A stretch of DNA of 64,000 nucleotides from Stictocephala bisonia. Taxonomy: Eukaryota > Arthropoda > Insecta > Hemiptera > Membracidae. The stretch covers positions 162,436 to 226,435 of the forward strand of contig JAQJVL010000671.1 of NCBI GenBank assembly GCA_035578905.1, given 5' to 3'. Positions 48,785 through 64,000 of the stretch are shown here, in pieces. The position numbers and the translations under genes were made by a program. The notes beneath the pieces were generated by a model. It was not told the DNA's origin, ran no database searches, and saw nothing but the letters and a program-made list of their open reading frames with translations. How positions within the stretch are numbered: position 1 is the stretch's first letter; each line of letters begins with the position of its first letter.

Positions 48785-49607
48785 TTACGATCCTATGTAC
48801 GGCAGTACTATAAAGCCACCGTTGCTGTGAAGCCTGATCAAGGTATGGTGGCTAGTGTCATAACTAGCTGCCCAACGGCCAATCACATGCTGTACCAGGG
48901 GAGATACACAATATTCGCTGACTAGCGGTTCATCCACAAGGCCCGGCTGAATGTCCTCCGCCTTAACGGCTGCCGACGCTGGGGTGCCGCCAACGACCAT
49001 CGCTGCAGGAGATGTGGGCGTCAAGATGAAACTACGGCCCACGTCTTATGCCATTGCTACGTTCACTTGGCAACTGGAGTGACGAGGCGGCATAATGCCA
49101 TCTTAGACCAGGTAGTCGCTGCTATACGGCAAAGGGGAGAGTTGAAGTCCAGGTGAACAGGCGGGTTCCACTGTCTGATCTGATCGGCCGAGAAGTAGAT
49201 ATTGATGAGGTGGTGGCCCAGTGCCGTCCAGACCTGGTGGTCATCAACCAACGTAACAAAAGTATTAAGATTGTCGATGTCACCGTGGCTTATGAGGACG
49301 GCTGGCAGGTCATTGAAGCTGCCAGAAATATGCCGCGTACGCCCCACTTGCCCGGGTCCTAACGGCGGAAGGTTTTAAAGTATGTATATGTGGATGCCTT
49401 CGTCGTTGGAGCTTTGGGCACTTGGGACAGTTATAATTGGAGGACTTTACATAACCTCAATATTTCTAAGCGGTATGTGACTACCCTCTCAAGAAGATGT
49501 GTTTCTGAAGCCATTCGCTGGAGTCGTGATATTATATATGAAATCGGACACAACCGGCGTCCAACAGTGGCCTCAAGACTACCACGCAAACGAATCTTCA
49601 TTAAATA
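48785..49607 (+). pseudogene. R2-like (RLE-type) LINE C-terminus, broken
   Basis: Read across frames: GMVASVITSCPTANHMLYQG, RYTIFAD-stop-RFIHKARLNVLRLNGCRRWG, the zinc knuckle CRRCG...AHVLCHC (C-x2-C ... H-x4-C), then RRHNAILDQVV. After a frame change comes the restriction-like endonuclease core (CRPDLVVINQ ... IKIVDVTVAYED), and after another VDAFVVGALGTWDSYNW ... RYVTTLSRRCVSEAIRWSRDI. This order (zinc knuckle, PD-(D/E)xK endonuclease, VGALGxWD tail) is characteristic of R2/NeSL-type LINEs. At least one in-frame stop (about 48922) and two frameshifts (near 49150 and 49340-49390) inactivate it. The reverse transcriptase is absent, so it is a 5'-truncated copy. Confidence 0.8.
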
Positions 49608-49865
49608 ACTCTAAACATATATATATATATATATATTTTTTTTAAAATTATTTCCTGACAACATCAGTTTAACGAGGAACGTATCATCCCCAACTATATT
49701 ATTATCAATAAATATTTTAAAATTGACAGCATTCATTCCAAGTAATAAACAATATTCATATTAATATTGTACGTTCCTATTAGTGACTTGGAATATTCCT
49801 ATTCTATCAAATAATTAATTAATTATACATCATAAAATATAGGCAATGAATGCATTTTATATATG
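49608..49865. other. AT-rich spacer with (AT)n
   Basis: A short (AT)n at about 49617-49636 follows the LINE stop, then AT-rich sequence to the next 131-bp unit. Confidence 0.5.
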
Positions 49866-50193
49866 GCCTGAGTGTTCGTGACTGAATCTACGTGGCTTAG
49901 AGCAGTACAAACTGTTACTGCCACTGGGGACGTGTGCTAGGACCACAATCCATATTGAGCGCTGATATATTGACAATCTATGCAATGCAATATCAGACCA
50001 GTGTGTTCATGACTGAATCTACGTGGCCTAGAGCAATATACAAACCTTTTACATCCACTGGGGACCATGTTCTAGGACCACAATCCATATTAAACGCTGA
50101 TGTATTGACAATCTATGCAATGCAATATCTGACCAGTGTGTTCGTGACTGAATCTCCGTGGCTTAGAGCAGTACAAACTGTTACTGGCACTGC
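49866..50193 (+). repeat. Tandem 131-135-bp units, about 2.4 copies
   Basis: ACTGAATCTACGTGG recurs at 49881 and 50012, and ACTGAATCTCCGTGG at 50147. Each full unit also has GGACCACAATCCATATT and TGACAATCTATGCAATGCAA. The third unit is cut at about 50188-50193, where the EnSpm-like element begins. Confidence 0.85.
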
Positions 50194-50204
50194 GTGCCCA
50201 GACA

Positions 50205-50600
50205 GCACATGCATATTCTGTGAACATTCTCAGAATGTTTCCTAAGAATATTCATAATATACCAAGCATATTCTGGAAGATTCTGAGAACATTTCCAGAA
50301 CCATGATTGAATATTCTATGTCCCACCTTGGAAATATTCTCAGAATGTTCTCCAGAACATTCCAGGAACCATCATGGCATATTCAAGGATGATCCTAGAA
50401 TATTCCAAACAAAGAAGTTCAGAGTGTTCTGAGAATGTTCTTGGGAGATTATCCTAGGAATATTCCGGGGAGATTGATAACATTCCTAGGCTTTTCTGAG
50501 AATATCCATCACTGATTCGAATATACCAGGGATATTCTTGTAATATTGCAACTTCAGTATTTAGAATAATCTCAGAATGTTCTTGTTATCTATTTAAGAA
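50205..50600. repeat. Subterminal motif cluster, left end of the EnSpm-like element
   Basis: Repeated, mostly palindromic copies of the core AGAATGTTC/GAACATTCT: GAACATTCTCAGAATGTTTC (about 50222), ATTCTGAGAACATTTCC (about 50279), ATTCTCAGAATGTTCTCCAG followed by AACATTCC (about 50337), GTTCTGAGAATGTTCTTGGG (about 50427) and AATCTCAGAATGTTCTTG (about 50569), mixed with GGAATATTCC-like variants. CACTA elements carry such arrays as binding sites for the accessory protein. Function here is inferred. Confidence 0.65.
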
Positions 50601-51516
50601 TATAGGCGGGAATTTTTTTATTCAAATAACAATTTTTGAAATATATAGTATTATATACATTTGTAAATGAAAAAATAAATGTCCTCTTTTGTTTATCTTG
50701 TGACAGACATTCCTACCTTCTTACCTTTTAAAATTCAAAGGTATTTTATTTCTTCTCACCTGGAAATTGAAATTTTATTTTATTTCCATATTTTATTTCC
50801 AACAAAAATTTAATTCTGACAACTCTAAAAGCTACAGCACTATTAATACAATTTTAATTATTATTTCAAACCGCACTTCTTCAAAATATGTAAAACTGTT
50901 TGTGCAACAAAAAATTACCAAAATTTGTGTTCTGCACATATAAATTGGCTGTTAAATTAACAGTTTAAAAATTATATAGGCTATATATCTGAGAAATCAA
51001 ATTCAGAAGATGGCGTTCAATATCAGTGTTTCTTAATGAGGATAATAAACCACATCAATAAAAAAGTTACCACTCATTTCATGTTAATTTAACATAATCA
51101 TTTAGCAATCAAATCGTCAACAAAAGGGGCATCGTGGTTTAGCCACAAACAAAATAGTTATTATGCTAATGTGATAATCAGCTGTTGTTTTATTATACCT
51201 TAGAAATGAAACAGCTACCGATGTTATGTAATTGGGCCTAAACTGTACATTAAGGGCTTTAAATTAATTTAAACAATAGTTTCTAGCTCAGTGCGCAATC
51301 TTGAGACCATTAAAAGGCACATACCATGGAAGGACCTTCAAACAGCACCTAAATCATGAAAATCGACCTAGCAGTAGTTTAGCCACAATCTCATCCTCAA
51401 AAATCGCCTTACTCTTTTAATATATGGATGAAGTTTGGAATAAAAGAACAATACTAAAATGATGGGAAATAAATTTAATAAAACTAATATTTAATTACAA
51501 AAATAGTGTTTAAATT
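50601..51516 (-). other. 3' flanking region of the DUF4806 gene inside the transposon
   Basis: AT-rich, non-coding. On the minus strand, ATTAAA-type polyadenylation variants occur within 50 bases after the stop codon (plus-strand TTTAAT near 51473 and 51489). I cannot tell which is used. Confidence 0.4.
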
Positions 51517-54500
51517 TTAATTTAACGCTTCTTCATTGTTTCCTTCAGGTACCGCAACAAAGATTCTGAAACAAAACATAGGAATAAAACGTATGAATAC
51601 AAATATTATATTGATTCCTAATGTTTAAAAAACAATTAAGGAACCCTTCAATTAATATGATTCTTTAAATGTTGCAATTATTTGTCAAAAATAATATTAA
51701 CATTCTCAAAAATTTCTGATAGTGAAGTTGCTGTTTACTTTTGGTGTCATAATAATAATAATTCTTTATTGATTTTTACAATGTAAATTGCGAATAGATG
51801 TTAATATTACTTCATAAAAAGCATTAGGGAATTATGTCAAAATATGTGGTTATTCTTGGCTTTATATTGCATAATTTAATTTAAACAAATAAATGGTACC
51901 ATATGGCTGAAACAACTTTTTTCCTTCATTATATTACATAATATATGTAATAACTCTTCACTCATGCTTTGCAATGGAATTTAAAAGGGGCCTCTTTGAC
52001 TAGAGCCATTGACATGTGTTCTGCTGATGCTCAAATTGCTTCACTACGCTCGTAGTTTCCATACATACTTAATCCATTGGCATACTACCCCAGCTTTAAG
52101 GAGACTGCTTTCCTACGCTTGCAAAGTCCGCACAGAATCAAGTACCAAAGTTTTTGTATTCAGTCTCATAACCTTTGTACTAGAGTTTGCCCACTCAAGT
52201 GGTTTTCACAAATTCATTTGTCATTTATAGCAGGCTATAAATGGGCAACATTTATTCAAAACGTTTGAACTATGTTTAAGAAAATTTTAGATGTTTAAAA
52301 TAAAAATAACTTTTTTATTTTTTTTTGTGGGGGGAGGGGGGGATGTTTCTTAAAATCAGTGATTAAAATAAAACAGCTTGTTGTCACAGTTAAATTACAA
52401 CTGCGTGTACCAAATTTTGATTAAAATCAGACCGTTGGTATAATCCGTATATGACTCTTATGTAAAAAACCCTTTGTTTAAAGGAAGGAATCCCAAAGAA
52501 GATATTTTTACTAAAATCTCGAATTGGAAAATTTTTACGAAAGCTCGTTACAGCTGTTATTTCTACAACACCAGGTGGTTACCAAATAGCTGCCAATGTT
52601 AATCCAGTTGGAAAAAATATAATTTTATGATAAATTAAGGCTTGGAATTTTGAAAAATCCCTTCTCAAAACACCTCTGAGTTATAACAAAAAAAAAAAAG
52701 AAGACAGTTATGACAAAATAGTCGGAACATAAGAAACTCTCACAATTCATATTCCAACACTCTCCTTATTTGTGGATTCCCTGGCACTTGATTAAGTTTC
52801 TGAATTTTTCCTGTCAAAAGGGGTAGTTTTAATATCAGATATATACTGACTAAAACTATAACCGGTAGAAAAATAAAACAGATTAGACTATAGTAAGAGG
52901 TACCGTCCCAACCAATGGGTAGTTTATAGGCAAATATAGGATGAACAGGTGATTTTATAGCGAGTGTGGCGCTATCTTGTAGTCTTGTTACAGACTAAGA
53001 CAGACTGTATGCTTAGACAGGACTATAATTAATAGCCTGGACAGTCAAAGGCGGATGTACCTACGGTTTATCGGGGAATCCGAACCACACTTCCAATATT
53101 TGTACAAATTGTTCTAATTGTGAGCATGTTTTTTGATTACTATGGAGTGCAGTATTCATTAGTGCGGACGCAAATCCACACATATGAAGTAGCATCCACA
53201 AGCCATCACTCACAACCATCCGCAACTCAGTTTGAGTTCAGATAGTATTTCAGTAGACTACAAGTGAGTCCGGCTGTGATAAAAAAATTACCTTAACAAT
53301 TTAAGTTAACATAATAGTTTAAATTAGACCTACTTACTTTGCTTTTGCCCTTTCTGATCTCTCCCTTGCTTTGACCAACCAAGCCTTAATGAAACATGCA
53401 ATGCTATCATTGGTTGAGTCATGAAAATTGACCCGCACAATATCTGAAAAACCAAATCTTAAATTAATGAAGGATGACTAGTATTTAAATTATTAGATTA
53501 GATTAAAACAATGACTTCAATTTGGGTTTGTATCACATTATTAAAAAAATAAACACAATAAAGGTTTTAATAACACTACTTGAATGTAAGAAATCTGGGT
53601 AAGAGAATCATAATGAGAAAATTTATTCTTTGAAGATATAAAATTAATATAATTTTAAAAATTCAAAAAAGCATTTATGAACATTTGCCATTGTCCAAGT
53701 GATAGCAGACTAAACAATTACTGACATTTTGTCATTTAATACAGTGCCTGTTATGAACTTTTTATATCATCAATGGTGTAATTATCTGAGGTTTCTTTAA
53801 AGATGGAAAAAATATATGTGGATTACGACATTGCGAGAGGAGTAGTAGAACTCATTACAAATGGATATCAAGCCACATTTTGATTTAGGTTCTCCTACTT
53901 TAGCTCATTTCAGTTTAAGCCCAAAATAAATACTCATAAATACCTTGAAATAATATGCCATAAACAGATTTATTTAGTTTATTAAAAATAAAATAAAAGA
54001 CAGTTTCCCTGTAATTACTCCAAAACCTACAGGCCAGGTTTCTTTCAGGATGGTTTTAGTCTGACCTAATTATTACCAAACAGCTGTTTGTATGATCAAA
54101 ACAAACTTATTTTGAAACATCCAGTAGGTTGAGGTAATGCCTAGTCTTGAACCAAAATAAAGCTCCGACTTCTAAATTGGTACTTAAAATAACTAAGTAC
54201 AGTTTGGTACAAAACAGAATAGAATAATGGTCTGTTTCACTTTACGAGTTCAGATAACTTAAGCACCAACTATATAGCATTTGAGACTACTTACCACAAA
54301 TGACATTGGCCAGTTGAAGCTCCTTAAAAACCATCTTCTTTTTCCAGCCAGCCCAGCTGTATTGGGCTGCTAGTTCATCCGTCATAATCTGCTGCATCAG
54401 ATCTCTCGTACAGAATTTTGGGTCCCTCCCACCAAACTTTGAAAAATGTTGAATCTGTAACATGTAATAAAGAAACATTACAATACACTGTACAATTAGT

Positions 54501-57500
54501 CAATGAAAGCAATAAATATTGCCGTTGGTTAGGTTTATGCTTAGTTCTTAGAGAGATAAATTATTTAGTATTTTTATAGGAGACAAGTTAAAGGCTGCAC
54601 ATTGTCTAGCATTACCCTACAACTATAATTACAACCAAATTATATTATATCCAGCCTATGCTAAAATATTGAAAAAAAGGCAATTTTCAAGTTTAAAACA
54701 AGGGGAGTCACTATTCCCTATGCTGGCTGGCAATGTTAAATTAGTGAGATTTAGGTAAATTTATTTAAAAAACTAAGTGATACAAGTATATGGTTTATTG
54801 TATTTTGTTTGTTGTGCTTTTTTGTAAACTTTAACGAGAGAAATTACATATTATTTTAGATGACTTTCATGAATTAAAAAAAATACTATGTAGTAATTCC
54901 CATGGTTTGTGCGCTTAAATAATTTACTAAAAAATCATTAAACAATATCTTTCAAAAACCTTGTGTTAAAGTATGTACAATTCCATGGTAAAGAAAACAA
55001 AACGCGAATTGTGTGCAACACATCATAAAACATTTTTTTTACCTTTCATGTAAATTTTGCATACAGAATGTAATATATTTTCTTAAACGGAAAACTTCAG
55101 AGCATAATAAAGTTAAAAAATTCCCAAACATTCATACTTTTTGTATGCGACTAGGTGTTACTGTGACAGTTTGCATACTGTAAGGATTACTCGCAATATG
55201 GTCAAATTTTTTCCATCTAATTTACTAAAGCATGTTACATGGAACTTGAGACAAAGTCAATAAAACTTAATTTAAAAACAAATTTGGATGACAATGAAAG
55301 TGTAAAATATACTTACCAAACAGGCCTTGTAGACTCCATCCAAATCTGCCTTCAGTTTATCTTCAACATTATTCACCTCTTGTACAGAAGCCAATGGAAA
55401 ATCCTGATGAATTTCTACATTGTTCAAGATTTCCACTTGGATCTGAGGTTGTCCCCTCACTTCCGGGATTCCTTTACTTTCTTCAAGAGCAATGACCCTT
55501 TGTAAAATTTCATTCTGAGTCTGTTTAATTTCTTTTAGGTTGTCTGCAATGGCTTTCAGTTGGTATTTGAGAGGAATTATATACCTCAAAATGGTCTTAA
55601 TGGATTTTTTATCTGTAGTCTCCGGTGTCTCTACCTCTGTAAAAAAACAAAAACATTAGCAAACTTAGTATAGTAAGATTCCAATTTACCCCTCAGCAAA
55701 GTCAAAGGGGGATAAGTTAGTTTCTGCTAAACAACACGAAAGCCAGCAAAAGAATAGAGGAAAAAGAGTTGATGATATCGTTAAGATTAGTAAATGCACA
55801 TTATGGACAAATTGGTAAACTTCAATGAAATTACATATACCTCTAGATATATTTTGCCATCCAAATTAAGGGGGTTTCATATCTTCTGCCACATCCTGGA
55901 AAAACTGATTTCAATCTCCCTCTTTGTAACCTTTCTTAACCAATTACAGCTATGTTAATGCCATAAATAGTTAATCTACAGCTGAATTGTTGTGAAAATT
56001 TAATTGCAAATAAAATTTAAGAGTAGGCAGTCGGTAAAGCTGGTAACAAATTGTCAAAATACGGGATTTTTGGAGTTATCTAGCATTAAAAGAATAATTA
56101 ATTTAAAAAATCTAAAATGATAAGTGGCATAGATTGGAATATGAAAAACAACGATGCAATAAAGGGGATGCAAAAGGGGATGCAAGCCTCTGTGTGCATT
56201 TTCTTTTCACAATAGCCCATGTTAATTTGGACCAGGAGACGACAATATCATGGTGGCGATACCGAACCCTTAAATGAGGTATAATTCAGTTTCCTTTTAT
56301 CAAATTGGGCACAAATTACAAACTTACACAATTTCTATCTTGAACAGCTGAAGTGAAAAGCCTAAAGAATCAACAGTTCCAAGATGTTGAGAAATGATTG
56401 CAATTTAAATATTTCCTTGTGAAAAATATTGTTATATCCTCAACCATAAAATATTAACACTATTAAATAATTTTGATACACTTTGCAAAATGTTTAGATA
56501 AGGTAGTAATAATAAAGAATTTATCCTACCCTGCTGAGTACGCATTGGTGGAGTCTGGCAGTTTTTCTTTGATCTATTATCACTCTTAGACGGCGTGGCT
56601 ACGCTTTCGTCCACTTTCCTTTGTTTGGGTGGTCTGGGATAGTCCCTCACTTTTAAAGAGGAACTATAAATGTCTTCTTCCTCTGAGCTGTCCTCAGATA
56701 TTAATGGAGGAGGGCAACTGTAAAAACTGTCTTCTTTCCTTGCTCTTGTATGCCGGCTCTTTTTTTCTTCTGTATCGGTATTTAAATCCGATTGGTTTTC
56801 TGCCAGGGTCAGTTTTTCTTTAGCTCTTTCAAATGAATCTGAAAAAAATACAACTGTAACGCAAATAAAAACCACTTTTACTACATTAGGTTAGGAGAAA
56901 ATAGTGGCTCAGGCATTTAACAAAATATGCTTTATAGAGAATATGTATGTGTCATTAATATGCTTGAAAAGTCCTTCATGAGTGAGTGTGAAATTATGAT
57001 CTATACTCTATTATTTCAAATAGCTTTGGGATTTGGCTCGCATTTTAATAAAACTTTGTTTGGACGTAGTTTCAAAGTTTTGTTTGGACGTAGTTTTAAA
57101 ATTAGAAAAACCTTCAAAATGTTGATTATGTTTTGTTTGCGTTAATTTAGGTTGGTTTCCTTGCGTCTATCTATGTACCACATCAAATCTATGGTGAGTC
57201 ATTCTAACGTGCAATGAATTTAAAGCCTGGCCGATTTAGTATAATGTAAAGTTTTTAATTGTGAACAGTTTACAGATTAATATAGTTTAATATGTTTTAT
57301 AGACTGATTCATCAAGTGTTAAGTAAAAAGATTCTGTAAAATGTTATGGTTGACTGGTGCCCTACCAAACTTAACTTTTTATCAATTAAACCTTAACTTA
57401 TTATGCCTACTTTAGATCTACTATTTCATCTGTAAATTCAGCCTAAAATGAGTTTCAAGTTTACATAAAACAGGAAGCATATTCTATAACCCTGAATTTG

Positions 57501-60500
57501 GTACTGAATTTACACTACATTGGTTTAATCCACTTACCACTGCCACCAAGGATCCGCAGGATCTCACATTTCGAATATTGGGGGCCAACTTCTTCCAAAG
57601 CTTGAACTGCTTTATAATATTGTTTGGAGTTTTTAATGTTGGGCCACCAACAAAACGTTTTATCCCTGCTTATCCAATTTTTTGGCACTAATTGTAGTCC
57701 ATCGTCAAACAAGACAATTCTGAATTGTTGTTCATCATGATCTGCAACATCTAAAATAAAATTAAAAGGATTTGGTTGACATTTGTTATTTAAAAGTCAA
57801 TCATAACAAGTGAAAATGTTTAGTATAATATTGTCTTTTACTAAATATAGACCTACTGAAAAAATATGTGTTTCAGTACAAATATACGAGCATTGAAATA
57901 GGTATAAATAGCATTGTAGGTCCACATTCATTTAGCAGGTTTGAATTTATTATAAATTATCAGAACATAATATTAATGAGTAAGAATATTTACAATGATG
58001 CAATACTAATATCTTCCCAAAAGAAGATGATGTAGTGATTCAAAAAGTATTTTAAAGTGATTTAATATCATATTTTTGATTCCAGGCAGTAATTTAAAGG
58101 ATTTTTCTATCATAAAGAATTATTGTTTTACTATTCTACACTTTAAAATAAACTATGAACTCAATTAGAAACTTTCATTGTAACGTGTCAAACCGTTTGG
58201 AATGCTAACTAAAAAATTGGGAACTCTAATGCAGTAACTTTTTAAAACTTACCATTTAATAATACTGTGGAGGAGAAAGTCTTTAAATTGGGATTTATGA
58301 ACCAGCACCATGAATAATTGGTAAAACTACATGTTTATCGTCATGTGCCAATACAAACAGTTTGCATTTTATTTGGTCTAAAGCCCAGATTTTCAAACTT
58401 GTAGATAATCTTGAGACTACTCTTATTCCAAACAAGGTTGAATCACAGGGTTTTTTAAAAAGTTCTTCTTTATGTTCAAATTCTTTTCCTATGATAACAG
58501 GTGAATTGAGTTCCAAACTTTTTGCAAAGTTTTCTATTTTTATTATGGTGCCGTCAATTAATTCACACCACGAATTCGCTTGTGTTTTGGAAATTATTTT
58601 GCAGCTTTTGAAATAAACTGTGCTATATTGGGGATTGATTGAGTTATGTGTGAGAGGCCCTTCATAATGGAGTGACTCTTTGTCTATTTCAACAGTGGTG
58701 TTGTCTTGGAGCAATTTTTTGTTTGGTATGGAGGACTGACTCTGTTGTTCTTCGTAAAACCTTCTACACAACTGCTGCAGAGGTTTATCCGATTTTCGTA
58801 ACTTTTTTTTCAAAATCTGCATCTCGTTCTCAAAAGCGAAGGCGCTAAACTCATCTAACGGTCCAAAAGTTTCAACATCTTGTGCCAAATGAGTAAGGCC
58901 ATGAACATTGTGACTTACATTGTGTCTACCATACAATAGCGAGAAGTTTTGTACAAAATTTTGTAAGAGCTCTTTCGCGTATTGCAGATAAGAGGGAACA
59001 GTTACAAGTTCAGGACTGCAAAGAATTCTAATTCCTACATGTAAACTTAAGAAGTTTTCAAAACAAATCTCTGGCAGAGCATTTTTGAAGGCTATTATAC
59101 CAGTGTATAATAGAATCTCACGGAACTCAGTAGCTTTCCACATCTTAATTTCTTTTAAAGACCTGGGTTTGCGAGAAAATTCAACAGGTATAAAAGTTTT
59201 TGAACTGACCAACCATTCAGAAATTCGATTGATTTGGTAGTTTCCAATTTTGAATTGCTGACGTTTCTTTCTAGTTCTCTTATCACCAAAAATCCACAAC
59301 CCAAGTAACTTTTTTACCACACCAAGGCATACAAGATGCATGTAGTCTATTGGGACATTGGTCACCAGCCCTAAACTTGGAATTTTGGTTAAATCTGTGA
59401 CACCAAGATGAAACTCTTGTCTGCTCCTGTCCACATCGGGGTTAGCATAATCATAATCACTACGTGGTACTGCATTTCTATCATCATAAAAACATACACT
59501 TCCCTGTAAATGGTGGCCATGAATAGTACATTTTGTACAGCTGTTGTAGCCTGAATGACTTTTTACGCTCAGAATAAAGGCCTTCGCAGGAGCATCACAA
59601 ATAATATATTTAATTTTAACACTGTACACAGTTGTTTTTATAATGATTCCATTTTTTGATAAGTCTAAGACTTCATCAATAAAATCCTTCATATATTCAT
59701 TAGCATTGTCAGGCTTTTCATTACCGTGGTAAGCTCCTATCAAAAATATATTCCTTCCTGGTACATTAACCACTCTTCCCATAATGGGCCAAAGGCAACT
59801 TCCAGAAGATTTTGCTATTGGAAGTCCATCGAATCCTACAGCAAGCTCAATTTGGCAAAGATTTTTCACCCCAGAAATATTTTCCCCTATAGATGTTTCA
59901 CTATTAATATTTGTTTTTATACCAGCATGCCAATATTTTCCTGGAAACACATCCCTTATCTCTGTGTATCTTGGCGTATTGAGTAAGGTTCTGGCATCTA
60001 AAGGTAGATCAGCGTGCCCATGTGAATTCAAAAGCTTAAGTAAGTCTGATAATGTTTTGTTTGGGACTTGATTTCTAATTGACCAACTAGCTAGGTCTTC
60101 CTTTAAGGATTGACTACTTTCAGTTTTATTCAAGCTGTCAGGTTCAATAGGATGAGTTGGCATATCCAAGTCATCACTTTTAGATGACGATGAATCAGTA
60201 TAAAGTAAGGCAGTTGAAAATGATGAATTCGGGAAACTTGACAATGAACTAGAGGTAAATGAAATGGAAGAAAGCGGTGAATTTGGTAAACTTGAAAGAG
60301 AAGAAGATAAGCTTGGAGAGTTTTGTAATTGAAAAGGAGGACTTTCCAATACATTTGATTTATCAGTAGGATTACTCTCAAGATTAGTTCCTGAATCATT
60401 TAGATGATCAATTTGTAAGCATGGAATAAACCTATTGTTTTTAAACTGCCTATCATCAGTATTTTCTTCAAAATCGCTTATTGGACCAACTAAGTCATCT

Positions 60501-63500
60501 AAAACATCTAAACTGCTACAGCTTGAATCAGTTGATTCCAAGATTAAGTTGACTTCATGCTTGGTTTCTTCTAAAGCAATCCTCTTTAAATGCTTCAGAG
60601 AAAGATCTTTTAAAGGCTTTCTCCTTTTAGACATGTTTTTCTTACATCAAACGGTTTACAGCAATTCTAAAATAGAAAAAACTTATGTTGGTTACCTCAC
60701 TTTATAAGCAATAACATATAAAAAATAAAAAATCCAGCCTAATACTGGCATTGCTTTGAAAAAAGGTTATTTCATACCTTGTATATATATACCATCAAAT
60801 AAATTCCTCATAAACTAGCCTTAAGACAATAAACAACTATCATATAAGTTAGGTGATATCTAATTTTACAAGTTTTTATAGTTTACCACTTACCAATTAA
60901 GTGGAATTCACAGTTTTTACTTTTCAATTGATTTATATGCACAAAATGTTTTTAAATTACTTGGACTGTTTCAGTTTGAAACATAACCAATGACTGGACT
61001 GGCTAGTAAAAATCTTTTTAGCAAATAAACTAGCTGGTAAAGTTCCCTCCTAAAACAGCCAATCCGTTTTAGACGTTACATCTGTACTCTATAAATTGTT
61101 CAGTTTAATTTAAAATATTTACAAAAATCTATTTCTAAAACAGAAACACATTATTTTGGCTGGCCATAGAAGTATTTGTAAAAAAAATTTATTTATTTTT
61201 AAATAGAGTAACAATTGAACTTGTTTGTGGGTATAGGCCTAGAGCATAATTTTATTAAGGTTGTTATATACCCATAAAAAGTAAAAACTACTTCTTATTT
61301 GTGATATGTGAAGGCTTTTTGTTTCTATTGAAAACCATAACTGTAATTCCTTTTAACAAAAGAAATGAAAATATGTTTTCTGTAACCCAGTTGTCATCGA
61401 TTTTGTAATGGATGTTAAAAAAATGGTTAAACTCTTATTTAAAAGCATTATGAACTATTACTATTGTTACTCATGAAACCAGCACAGTTACAATATGAAC
61501 TAGAAGGTATTTTCATAATAAATAAATAGTTTGCAGTGTTTTAAAATATTTGCATTGGCTAACAAACCAACAATGACAACAGTGCTACTGACTTGAGCAA
61601 ATTATACACAGGATTTCAACTTTTTCCAAACAACTTTAAAATCGACAAAATAATTTCAAAAAATAAAATAACTAATATATAAGATTAGTGTGATAAACTT
61701 AACTACTTTTTTCATTATAAAATTAATTTCGGTAGTTTTAAACAAAATTTTCCCAAATTCTTTCTTACATAGATTGGCTAGAAGGTTCTTCTACTTAAAA
61801 CAGTAGCCGTATGACATTCAACACAAGCAAGGTAAACGCAGTAAACCAACTTTACTTGTCAGATAATAGTGAATAAATAGTCGATAATGAGTAATTGCTT
61901 TAAATATGGGCTTCTACTTAAACATGAAGAGTATGAATTTGTGTTTACTGTCTTTACAATATATTCAAATAACCTAATCTTTTAGAATTTAGAAAAAAAT
62001 ACATCTTGAAATAAACTGTACGCCAACCTACCTCAAAATTAAAATTAAAAAAAAAACTTGTCAGAAAAAAATATTTTACCTTAAACTAGTGATGTGGGCC
62101 GGGTAAATACCCAGTGGGAAGGTAAATATAAATCGGGTATTTACCCAGAGGTCGTTTAAATACCCAAAATGAGGGTATTTTCAGTTATTGAGCTTTTTAT
62201 TACACTTTTTTAATTGTTGATGAAGTATTGGACAAACAGGGACTGAAACACAGCTATTTGATGCCTTAAATTGAAATCAGGAACAATATTCATCCTTCAA
62301 AACTAAACTAAAGGAAAATTGACGTGCGGGTATTTATATGTTTTGGCACTGTAACACCGTAACCTTTTTGTATTGGTTCTTAAAGAGTGTTTTTCTTAAA
62401 CTAAAGTAATATATTGAATAACATATTGTTGTTGTTTAGTTTTTAAAATTTTTAATACATAGGCCTACCAAGGTATTGAGAAGGCCGAGTTCATTAGGGT
62501 ACCGACCGGTACTGAAAATGAGCAACAAAGACAGGTTTTGTAATTTTTCTGATGTAGGCCTACATTACTTTGAATTTCTTTAATAAATGATAAAAACTAT
62601 TCTAAACAAAATTTGATTTTGATTTGACCGAAGTTGTACTTCTACTACTCAACTGATATTTTTCATTGTAAAACATAAACATTGTGTTGAAAACGGTATA
62701 TTGCACCTTTAGTAGAACTTTACCAATGCTCTAAATTAATTTCCACTAATTGTTATCTCATTGTTTGCAAAAAGGCCTAGTTCAGTTGTAACTCTGAGTT
62801 TTCAGGTTATAAATATTGAATTGTATCTTCTTATCCAATTAGTCATAATTAAATTAAATTGTTATTAACTATCTAATCTTATTATATTTCTAGAAAGTTA
62901 ATATAGAATAGGCCTAGTTTGCATATTGGTACCTTTTTTAGGGTTCAACTTTCTGCGACACATGATTTTTAATGTAATATCAAAAATACCCAGGTATTTA
63001 CCCAAATTGGGTATTTACCCAGGTATTTACCCCGATTTATAAGTACCTGGGTATTTCACATCACTACCTTAAACATTAGATCCCAAAATAAATTTGGTGC
63101 TAGAATTTGAATACTAAAGACCTATGTACGCCACATTGGCTTGGTTTAGACTTTGTTTGTGAACATTGGTAGTGTTTTCTATTACAAATAGGTTACCGTT
63201 CTTGACTAGGCCTACTAACAAGCTTAAATTGGCATGATCACAATATCCCCTTTAAATCTTATTTAGATCTATGATTGAAATGGGCTATAATTTTTGGGTT
63301 TCACTTTGGTTTGAACCAGTAACAAAATTCAAATAGCCTAGTTGCCCAGACATAAACTAAAATGATTTATCCCTCAAAAATATCTTCCTGGTGGTAATAC
63401 TGTAAAACGATTTTCCTACTTGATTAATAGGCTAGAAACTTTAAACCTTCTTATAAAATCAGCAACTTTAAAGAACTACCTACTATGGGCATAGGTAACT

Positions 63501-63696
63501 TTACATCAATTAGTATTGATCCATTTAATCCATATAATCTACCATAATTTTATTCAGTGACATGAAACAGAAACAACAACAAAATAGGGCAACATAGTTA
63601 ACCTACAAGTAACAAATGTGGATAGGTTTTACATGTAAAAGTATAAATTAATAGTGGACAGTTATGATAATTATAATTACCTTCAGTGCCAGACAT
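51517..63696 (-). CDS. DUF4806-type accessory protein of the transposon, 7 exons, 390 aa
   Basis: Exons, all minus: 63681-63696, 57538-57750, 56530-56838, 55317-55636, 54295-54454, 53338-53443 and 51517-51565. They total 1173 bases with no internal stop. Every intron has GT/AG ends, mostly GTAAGT donors, and the phases agree at all six junctions. The start MSGTEDVADH needs exon 1 joined to exon 2, which fits exactly. Residues 15-76 form an N-terminal module (LFDDGLQLVPKNW, CWWP at 39-42). Residues 77-195 are Ser/Lys/acidic and look disordered, with a basic PRPPKQRK patch. About 201-233 is a coiled coil. 287-372 is the DUF4806 core (FGGRDPKFCTRDLM, TDELAAQYSWAG, then WLVKARER). DUF4806 proteins are common in insects, of unknown function. 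By position it parallels TnpA of maize Spm, so binding of the subterminal repeats is my hypothesis. The transposase ORF lies in intron 1. Confidence 0.85.
51566..53337 (-). other. Intron 6 of the DUF4806 gene
   Basis: GTAAGT donor at 53337-53332 and a TTTCAG acceptor at 51571-51566. The inside shows no further exon. Two low-complexity runs, and open frames near 52009-52268 without motifs. Confidence 0.7.
51750..51800 (-). repeat. Short LINE-like 3' tail in the last intron
   Basis: The minus strand reads TACATTGTAAAAATCAATAA then AGAATTATTATTATTATG: an AATAAA signal followed by ATT repeats, like the LINE-A 3' end (AATAAAGAATATTATTATC). Probably a heavily truncated insertion in the intron between exons 6 and 7. 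Confidence 0.5.
58253..60666 (-). other. Cassette-like exon containing the transposase ORF
   Basis: The acceptor TTTTTTCTATTTTAG ends at 60667, 32 bases before the ATG. The donor AATG|GTAAGT starts at 58252, about 40 bases after the stop. A single-exon gene would need neither. Joined to exon 1 (63681-63696), the upstream reading frame gives an 8-codon peptide (MSGTEELL) ending in TAA, 22 bases before the transposase ATG. Joined to exon 2 at 57750, the downstream exons would become 3' UTR. This suggests alternative splicing of one transcript for both proteins. The splice sites are seen; their use is inferred. Confidence 0.6.
58295..60634 (-). CDS. EnSpm/CACTA-like transposase (tnp2/Transposase_21-type), 779 aa
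   Basis: The enzyme would cut the element out and reinsert it. The N-terminus (1-20) is basic (SKRRKPLKDLSLKHLKRI), and 30-180 is Ser/Asp-rich and low complexity. The conserved part starts with LPLDARTLLNTPR at 210-222. RNase H-like core candidates: GFDGLP at 267-272 (Asp269), ICDAPAKAF at 345-353 (Asp347) and FENEMQILKK at 601-610 (Glu602 or Glu604). A C-x2-C at 366-369 with His372 follows the second Asp, as in tnp2 proteins. PIDYMHLVCLGV at 428-439 matches the PxDxMH-GV motif, and GLTHLAQDVETFGPLDEFSAF at 579-599 matches the DUF4218-like block before the catalytic Glu. The ATG has an A at -3. No frame damage, so the copy may be active. Length and motif order fit the family of long uncharacterised insect proteins of this type. 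Confidence 0.87.
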   Translation of the reverse strand: MSKRRKPLKDLSLKHLKRIALEETKHEVNLILESTDSSCSSLDVLDDLVGPISDFEENTDDRQFKNNRFIPCLQIDHLNDSGTNLESNPTDKSNVLESPPFQLQNSPSLSSSLSSLPNSPLSSISFTSSSLSSFPNSSFSTALLYTDSSSSKSDDLDMPTHPIEPDSLNKTESSQSLKEDLASWSIRNQVPNKTLSDLLKLLNSHGHADLPLDARTLLNTPRYTEIRDVFPGKYWHAGIKTNINSETSIGENISGVKNLCQIELAVGFDGLPIAKSSGSCLWPIMGRVVNVPGRNIFLIGAYHGNEKPDNANEYMKDFIDEVLDLSKNGIIIKTTVYSVKIKYIICDAPAKAFILSVKSHSGYNSCTKCTIHGHHLQGSVCFYDDRNAVPRSDYDYANPDVDRSRQEFHLGVTDLTKIPSLGLVTNVPIDYMHLVCLGVVKKLLGLWIFGDKRTRKKRQQFKIGNYQINRISEWLVSSKTFIPVEFSRKPRSLKEIKMWKATEFREILLYTGIIAFKNALPEICFENFLSLHVGIRILCSPELVTVPSYLQYAKELLQNFVQNFSLLYGRHNVSHNVHGLTHLAQDVETFGPLDEFSAFAFENEMQILKKKLRKSDKPLQQLCRRFYEEQQSQSSIPNKKLLQDNTTVEIDKESLHYEGPLTHNSINPQYSTVYFKSCKIISKTQANSWCELIDGTIIKIENFAKSLELNSPVIIGKEFEHKEELFKKPCDSTLFGIRVVSRLSTSLKIWALDQIKCKLFVLAHDDKHVVLPIIHGAGS
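60667..63680 (-). other. First part of intron 1 (exon 1 to transposase exon)
   Basis: AT-rich. Begins with a GTAATT donor at 63680 (minus strand) and ends with the acceptor at 60667. It holds the hAT-like element at 62087-63066 and no coding exon that I can see. Confidence 0.6.
62079..63074. mobile_element. hAT-like non-autonomous element with 8-bp target duplication
   Basis: The element is 62087-63066 (980 bp) between perfect CCTTAAAC duplications (62079-62086 and 63067-63074). Terminal inverted repeats are TAGTGATGTG ... CACATCACTA, followed by subterminal arrays of GGGTAAATACCC/GGGTATTTACCC motifs in both orientations. An 8-bp duplication and (C/T)AGxG ends are the hAT hallmark. No transposase inside. 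Confidence 0.88.
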
Positions 63697-63892
63697 CTTC
63701 TACTAAGCGATCACTCAATATATTGATATCTTCCTTCTTCAAAACTAATTAACTCGAACAAATAATTCCAAGTGAAAACACATCGAAATGGCGGCGTGGC
63801 GTCTGGCGTGGTCGTAGGTGGTAAACAAAACAACAGGTCAACAGGTTATAGTTCTAAATATCACCACGTAAGCGCTGTGCGAGTTTTCAGAA
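63697..63892 (-). promoter_or_regulatory. Presumed 5' UTR/promoter region of the transposon transcription unit
   Basis: Upstream of the exon-1 ATG on the minus strand. It is locally GC-richer than its surroundings (63780-63830, with GCCGCCATTT). I see no clear TATA box. Promoter activity is inferred only from position. Confidence 0.4.
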
Positions 63893-64000
63893 TGTGCCAA
63901 GATGAGCGCAAAGTACGTTGTGGGAATATACGATTTTAGAATAATCACAGAATGTTCCTAGAACGTTTGGAGATGAAACAAGCAAAATAAGACATTGGGG
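63893..64000. repeat. Subterminal motif cluster, right side of the EnSpm-like element
   Basis: TTTTCAGAATGTGCC (about 63884-63898), GGGAATATACG (about 63921) and TTTAGAATAATCACAGAATGTTCCTAGAACG (about 63935-63965) repeat the motif of the left cluster. In particular AGAATAATCACAGAATGTTC resembles AGAATAATCTCAGAATGTTC at about 50563. Confidence 0.6.

Follow-up and report, generated by a model that had tools for sequence, protein, structure and literature searches.

A predicted two-product CACTA transposon of Stictocephala bisonia with the transposase frame enclosed in the first intron of a DUF4806 gene

Structure of the element

The analyzed stretch of DNA (hereafter the window; 64,000 nucleotides, C671:162436-226435, contig JAQJVL010000671.1 of the 1.68-Gb assembly of the treehopper Stictocephala bisonia) contains a transposon of 13,967 bp. 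Its boundaries (50197-64163 in window numbering) were set by the alignment of other copies, and its final 163 bases lie past the window end. The element carries two genes on one strand: a multi-exon gene encoding an accessory protein with a DUF4806 domain, and a transposase gene placed wholly within the first intron of the former. We consider it probable, judging from sequence comparisons, that we are dealing with a TRC-type CACTA transposon of animals, autonomous in appearance and organized as one transcription unit with two products. The following features were distinguished:

50195..50196, unstranded: 2-bp target-site duplication TG (partner at 64164-64165, outside the window), from copy comparison
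50197..50209, plus strand: terminal inverted repeat CCCAGACAGCACA, on the 3' side of the genes, from copy boundaries and the matching inverse ending at 64163
50197..50646, unstranded: subterminal region with 10 GAANNTTC palindromes, from a motif count
51517..51565, minus strand: accessory exon 7, including the stop codon, from the splice model
53338..53443, minus strand: accessory exon 6, end of the BEN-like stretch, from the splice model and domain match
54295..54454, minus strand: accessory exon 5, most of the DUF4806/BEN-like domain, from the splice model and domain match
55317..55636, minus strand: accessory exon 4, from the splice model
56530..56838, minus strand: accessory exon 3, from the splice model and profile matches
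57538..57750, minus strand: accessory exon 2, from the splice model
58253..60666, minus strand: proposed transposase cassette exon, with acceptor ttttag/A before 60666 and donor TG/GTAAGT after 58253, predicted from DNA
58298..60634, minus strand: transposase, 779 aa, intact, with invariant D269, D347 and E602, from the open reading frame and alignment
63681..63696, minus strand: accessory exon 1, coding part (MSGTE), donor gtaatt, from the splice model
63714..64163, unstranded: opposite subterminal region with 5 GAANNTTC motifs (63714..64000 in the window; the motif at 63950 inside it), from a motif count

The seven accessory exons splice without break into a protein of 390 aa, with canonical borders and compatible phases (donor phases 1, 1, 1, 0, 1 and 2), and the DUF4806 domain of this protein scores 27.1 bits (cut-off 25). 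Intron 1, extending from 63680 to 57751 (5,930 nt in this copy), encloses the entire transposase, whose frame reaches a stop codon at 58297-58295 with no internal stop. A preliminary description of this DNA had placed an intact tnp2-like transposase between exons 1 and 2 of an intact, seven-exon DUF4806 gene of the same strand, and the frame, the exon coordinates and borders and the domain score confirm that arrangement.

Among 7974 candidates scored, 227 transposase homologues were found at E 0.001. Within the best 120 of these 227 matches, from which the homologue details are taken, those naming an organism are of arthropods, apart from one fish (Astyanax), and the best match is from Camponotus (46% identity over 77% of the query). 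Residues D269, D347, C366/C369 (CxxC), D430 and E602 are invariant in all 13 aligned transposases, and D269, D347 and E602 are the presumed catalytic residues. In Pfam, the window transposase matches DUF1258 only, at 20.9 bits and thus below the cut-off of 33.1, while the aligned relatives (n = 55, E 0.01) match DUF4218 (17), DUF1258 (15) or Transposase_21 (8). A tnp2-type (RNase H-like) transposase with conserved acidic residues is a hallmark of the CACTA (En/Spm) superfamily in its plant definition, as are subterminal repeats, which are present here at both ends.

For the accessory protein, a comparison of the window sequence with 5.8 billion proteins gave no match at E 0.001, and a profile built from five accessory proteins retrieved two fragments only, both matching exon 3 of the window gene.

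Ends and insertion site

Both termini of the transposon consist of CCCAGACAGCACA and its inverse, with CCC as the first bases. Copies elsewhere align from 50197 to 64163, the right boundary corresponding to C671:226598, and not from 50188 to 64000 as the preliminary description had it. The 19-mer CACTGCGTGCCCAGACAGC, which had been put forward as the terminus, occurs once in the whole assembly when up to one mismatch is allowed and is not shared by the copies; what these have in common lies only inward of the boundary, beginning CCCAGACAGC. The CACTG terminus CACTGCGTG was rejected as flanking satellite DNA outside the element. The host site is a tandem satellite (units of approximately 131-135 bp, from 49940 to about 67770 in window numbering), which is interrupted by the transposon and whose intact units supply the empty site. 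An exact 12-mer located 23 units, of which 22 are uninterrupted. These 22 read CACTGGGGA, or CACTGGAGA in one case, and none has CACTGCGTG; CACTG is assigned to the satellite on these grounds.

Duplications of 2 bp flank the element at seven of the eight loci with both ends read: TG (C671 and C259), TA (C921, C612 and C5040), TT (C84) and AA (C270). The eighth locus, C625, has an extra G or can be read as carrying a 3-bp duplication, GTA. A further seven contigs (C8525, C1033, C1656, C2467, C5049, C3384 and C7045), at which one end only was seen, stand outside this count.

Copies and deletion derivatives in the genome

Searching with the two ends identified at least 15 contigs, and the transposase DNA matches 12 stretches on 11 contigs. 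Most of the transposase is present on six contigs, five of which (C671, C625, C8525, C3384 and C1656) carry accessory exons downstream in the same order; the sixth, C1033, breaks off within the transposase. The proposed nesting thus withstood the refuting condition set in the preliminary description, namely transposase copies that are never found next to the DUF4806 gene. Order and spacing are repeated on C625, C3384 and C8525 at approximately 98% identity, with different flanks where the ends are assembled.

Among the six contigs, both genes are open in the window copy alone, the rest having stops, small indels or truncation. Some of these lesions may be assembly errors, as C1656 and C270 look unpolished. 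The possibility that the latter two represent an old subfamily (79-82% identity, many stops) was considered and rejected: they contain homopolymer-type insertions, apparently of unpolished long-read sequence, and their differences were therefore not used as divergence. The left flank is common to C8525 and C1656 (agreement at 512 of 600 ungapped positions, nearly complete over the first 69), and the two may therefore represent a single insertion.

Matches to the accessory protein below E 0.1 are confined to contigs carrying the element, although this search is blind to distant relatives, since the accessory gene of the second family described below was not listed by it. A Pfam DUF4806 search of the genome was uninformative, as 14 control genomes gave no match either.

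Three contigs (C7045, C5040 and C612) share an identical deletion junction, which removes 55428-60517 (window numbering) and keeps the frame, so that 39 residues of transposase are followed by the latter half of exon 4 and then by exon 5. The presence of the same derivative at three places suggests mobilization in trans, like that of defective Spm elements. Judging from exons 4 and 5, which were examined, the derivative could encode a short transposase/DUF4806 hybrid, possibly a repressor-like product.

Splicing and the transcription unit

The proposed model comprises 14 splice sites, each of them canonical in the window copy; of the 38 corresponding sites that are readable in the three best other copies (C625, C8525 and C3384), 34 are canonical. 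The transposase block is bordered by an acceptor before its ATG and by the donor TG/GTAAGT, whose last exon base (58253) lies 42 nt past the transposase stop. Because this acceptor and this donor are kept in the three other copies (canonical in 3 of 3), the block can be a cassette exon, which suggests a single transcription unit of the kind described for maize tnpD and for SmTRC1 of Schistosoma. The hexamer GTAAGT occurs in the element eight times in sense and once in antisense orientation. Of the sense occurrences, four coincide with accessory donors, one with the post-transposase donor and three with no site of known use. The chance of finding it in a 66-nt stretch of simulated element sequence was 0.0165. 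When exon 1 is joined to the transposase block, an eight-codon upstream frame (MSGTEELL) with its stop precedes the transposase ATG, and lower translation of the transposase would therefore be expected.

A second family and other species

A second, TRC-like family was found on five contigs (C3304, C2049, C2983, C4848 and C264). The transposase of C3304, a 703-aa open frame, is 38% identical to that of the window over residues 165-632, and its accessory gene (six exons as spliced here) encodes a 369-aa, full-length homologue of the window protein (pairwise E 2e-22; DUF4806 at 36 bits) with equal intron phases at all four corresponding donors. The two genes are arranged differently: the accessory exons (22472 to 17556) lie upstream of the transposase (17620 to 15545), with an overlap of 65 nt, and the transposase frame begins within the last accessory exon in a different frame. 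This order was read in three copies (C3304, C2049 and C2983), in which the accessory exons present are upstream or overlapping, and no convincing accessory exon was detected between the transposase and the right end, TACTGGGG. Near that end, the palindromic repeat GTTGGCCAAC is found and GTTGGCCAA(C) is repeated, four times as a 9-mer; no left end was detected in the stretch examined. In the last accessory exon of this family, the first ATG opens a 14-codon upstream frame.

We rejected a chance association of the two genes, since their pairing recurs both in the copies of the window element and in the second family. As the latter pairs homologous genes in another order, the pairing is old and the nesting not fixed. 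The nested, En/Spm-like layout reported in the preliminary description is thus borne out for the window element and its copies, but does not hold as a rule.

Evidence for the gene pair in other species consists of three gene models among the best 120 transposase homologues, in each of which the transposase is followed by a part equivalent to accessory exon 2 and onward into the accessory protein: (i) Frankliniella (thrips; P0037, 1215 aa), (ii) Ornithodoros (tick; P0064, 1053 aa, with the DUF4806 part unrecognized) and (iii) Cardiocondyla (ant; P0078, 1049 aa, DUF4806 at 27.6 bits). These models are predictions and therefore do not prove a joint transcript. A transposase tree (n = 33) was built from 31 of the 120 listed matches, three of them trimmed to the transposase part, together with the window and C3304 proteins. 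The four rows of the "transposase then accessory" type fall on separate branches and C3304 on a long one; the deep forks are weakly supported, so we claim no ancestral layout. A scan of viral contigs for relatives with genomic context found none.

Subterminal palindromes and the accessory protein

The palindrome GAANNTTC (GAAnnTTC) is present 17 times in the element, with 15 occurrences in the two terminal 450-bp stretches and 2 in the intervening 13,067 bp; the count at either end was reached by none of 2000 first-order simulations. The C-terminal DUF4806 part of the accessory protein looks BEN-like, resembling BEN DNA-binding domains. When a profile of four DUF4806 parts was compared with 177,635 sequences of solved structures, BEND6 was the sole chain below E 0.01 (0.0067; the next, 0.26), and it was again the best match of a full-length accessory profile (E 0.095; see also PMC11075544, cited in support of this assignment). 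Among BEN proteins, Insv and Elba1 are reported to bind the palindrome CCAATTGG and NAC1 to bind ACATGT, the site given for NAC2 being non-palindromic (PMC7764960). Because DUF4806 appears BEN-like and the GAAnnTTC palindromes cluster at both ends, the accessory product is probably a TNPA-like end-binding protein. By analogy with TNPA and the Spm subterminal repeats, it would be a natural reading that the accessory protein of each family recognizes its own palindrome.

Comparison with known systems

The closest described elements are those of the TRC group, known from Schistosoma, Aedes and Tribolium, which are reported to have CCC ends and 2-bp duplications (PMC1636069), both of which the window element shares. 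The published Aedes end, CCCAGTCAAC, is very close to CCCAGACAGCACA, and the duplication was recorded in 7 of 14 SmTRC1 copies (PMC1636069). For SmTRC1 of Schistosoma mansoni, a report of 2006 presented transcripts that skip or include the transposase frame and already compared them with Spm; alternative splicing and two tandem frames on one cDNA clone are described there (PMC1636069), the corresponding splicing of the window element being predicted from its DNA. SmTRC1, compared here by its published description, is also smaller (approximately 4.5 kb vs. 13,967 bp), and its protein parts outside the transposase domain are given in that report as not detectably conserved, in contrast to the 390-aa DUF4806 protein with its arthropod homologues (PMC1636069).

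For the plant comparison, maize En/Spm was grouped with snapdragon Tam1 and soybean Tgmt. In maize, the tnpD frame is described as lying in intron 1 of tnpA, both products coming from one unit (PMC2613891), and the likeness to the window element comprises a tnp2-type frame inside the first intron of a gene with several exons that encodes a (here presumed) DNA-binding protein, subterminal binding, which in our case is predicted, and deletion derivatives (PMC2613891). Plant CACTA elements are, however, described as having CACTA (or CACTG) ends and 3-bp duplications (PMC4158355), as opposed to the CCC ends and 2 bp found here, and candidate TnpA proteins of lettuce were chosen by Transposase_24 (PMC8195511), in place of which the window accessory has a DUF4806/BEN-like domain. 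DUF1258 is termed Mirage in PMC3985635; to this group of the CMC superfamily the window transposase is related with a score below the cut-off, each of the three domains matching a minority of the 55 relatives.

Since maize tnpA/tnpD and the splicing of SmTRC1 have already been published, the layout is of a known kind. The term En/Spm-like, used in the preliminary description, suits the two genes and their nested anatomy, but the ends and the duplication are of the TRC type, and Spm-like splicing in an animal element had been reported before (PMC1636069). A link between DUF4806 and a transposase was not found in the open-licence PMC literature, Repbase and subscription journals lying outside that search. 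As far as searched, what is new is which protein forms the partner, that it probably binds DNA, the palindromes at the ends and the second family with exchanged order.

Interpretation and alternative explanations

In the single-unit organization that we favor, transcription would start upstream of exon 1. Skipping of the transposase block would join exon 1 to exon 2 and yield the accessory protein; its inclusion would give a two-frame message, from which the transposase would be read after short upstream frames and hence made sparingly. The accessory protein would bind the subterminal palindromes and pair or regulate the ends, as maize TNPA does, the transposase would cut at the CCC/GGG ends, and internally deleted copies would be moved in trans.

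Several observations weigh against this organization. One or two accessory splice sites are missing from each of the better copies: C625 and C8525 have GG at the exon-2 acceptor (as does C1656), C8525 also lacks the exon-6 donor, and C3384 lacks the exon-5 acceptor. In the C259 derivative, it is the transposase acceptor that is lost. Substitutions between copies look neutral: four comparisons of the transposase, which are not independent, add up to 63 non-synonymous and 28 synonymous changes and 5 to stop, and three of the accessory gene, likewise not independent, to 19, 2 and 1, respectively. This is what decaying copies would be expected to show, and it provides no evidence of selection inside the family. 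The resemblance to BEN domains is weak by sequence (E 0.0067), and the four bases CGTG between the satellite CACTG and the 50197 end, present in none of the intact units, are unexplained. Lastly, AATAAA/ATTAAA motifs at 58260, 58066 and 57951 lie between the transposase stop and exon 2, so that a message could end there without the accessory part.

These poly(A)-like signals would also suit a pair of separate genes whose positions simply overlap, in which case the transposase would have its own promoter in intron 1 and its own poly(A) site and the accessory gene would be transcribed independently; the 5,930-nt intron leaves space for a promoter, and the differing order in the second family indicates that nesting is not essential. 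A single-exon gene would, however, have no obvious use for an acceptor before the ATG and a consensus donor past the stop, which are nevertheless canonical in all three better copies, and three arthropod gene models continue from the transposase into the accessory part, so we regard separate genes as rather improbable. It is very unlikely that the accessory gene is host cargo captured once, with no role in transposition. Its fast evolution, the empty first database search at E 0.001, the neutral-looking changes and the loss of an accessory splice site in each better copy would fit such cargo, but a homologous accessory gene (E 2e-22, four of four phases equal) accompanies a transposase only 38% identical, ant, thrips and tick models contain both genes, and accessory matches below E 0.1 lie only on element contigs, albeit in the search that missed the second family. 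As for the nested layout being an accident of one copy, through insertion of one element in another or an assembly artefact, the window copy does carry a foreign 980-bp insertion in intron 1 and contigs C1656 and C270 look unpolished; the recurrence of order and spacing on C625, C3384 and C8525 at approximately 98% identity, with different flanks where the ends are assembled, leaves this explanation hardly credible.

A broader proposal can be made tentatively, and we hold it to be possible rather than likely: the DUF4806/BEN-type proteins may be the animal counterpart of TNPA, an end-binding subunit as old as the lineage, with its gene and that of the transposase interlocked in one transcription unit (nested in most lineages, with overlapping frames in one). 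If so, plant and animal CACTA elements would have inherited the nested layout from a common ancestor and would differ by a swap of the DNA-binding partner, and many of the orphan DUF4806 genes in animals would code for transposon subunits or descend from such subunits by domestication. Apart from this proposal, the element provides animal CACTA transposases with a conserved partner that probably binds DNA; for the only animal element with transcript studies, the protein parts beyond the transposase domain had been described as unconserved. It also offers a testable parallel to maize Spm, alike in layout and different in the DNA-binding domain. The genome has two families in which the same two genes are interlocked in different ways and the end palindromes differ; these provide a test of the co-evolution of partner and end repeat, and bear on whether the nested layout is inherited or convergent.

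Other features of the window

One further feature lies within intron 1, outside the transposon proper:

62087..63066, unstranded: 980-bp insertion of another element, missing from the copies aligned

This insertion has the ends TAGTGATGTG/CACATCACTA and an 8-bp duplication, GTTTAAGG, and resembles what we take to be a non-autonomous hAT-type element. Upstream of the transposon, at 48926-49608 (plus strand), the window contains frames that look like the carboxy-terminal part of an R2-like non-LTR reverse transcriptase.

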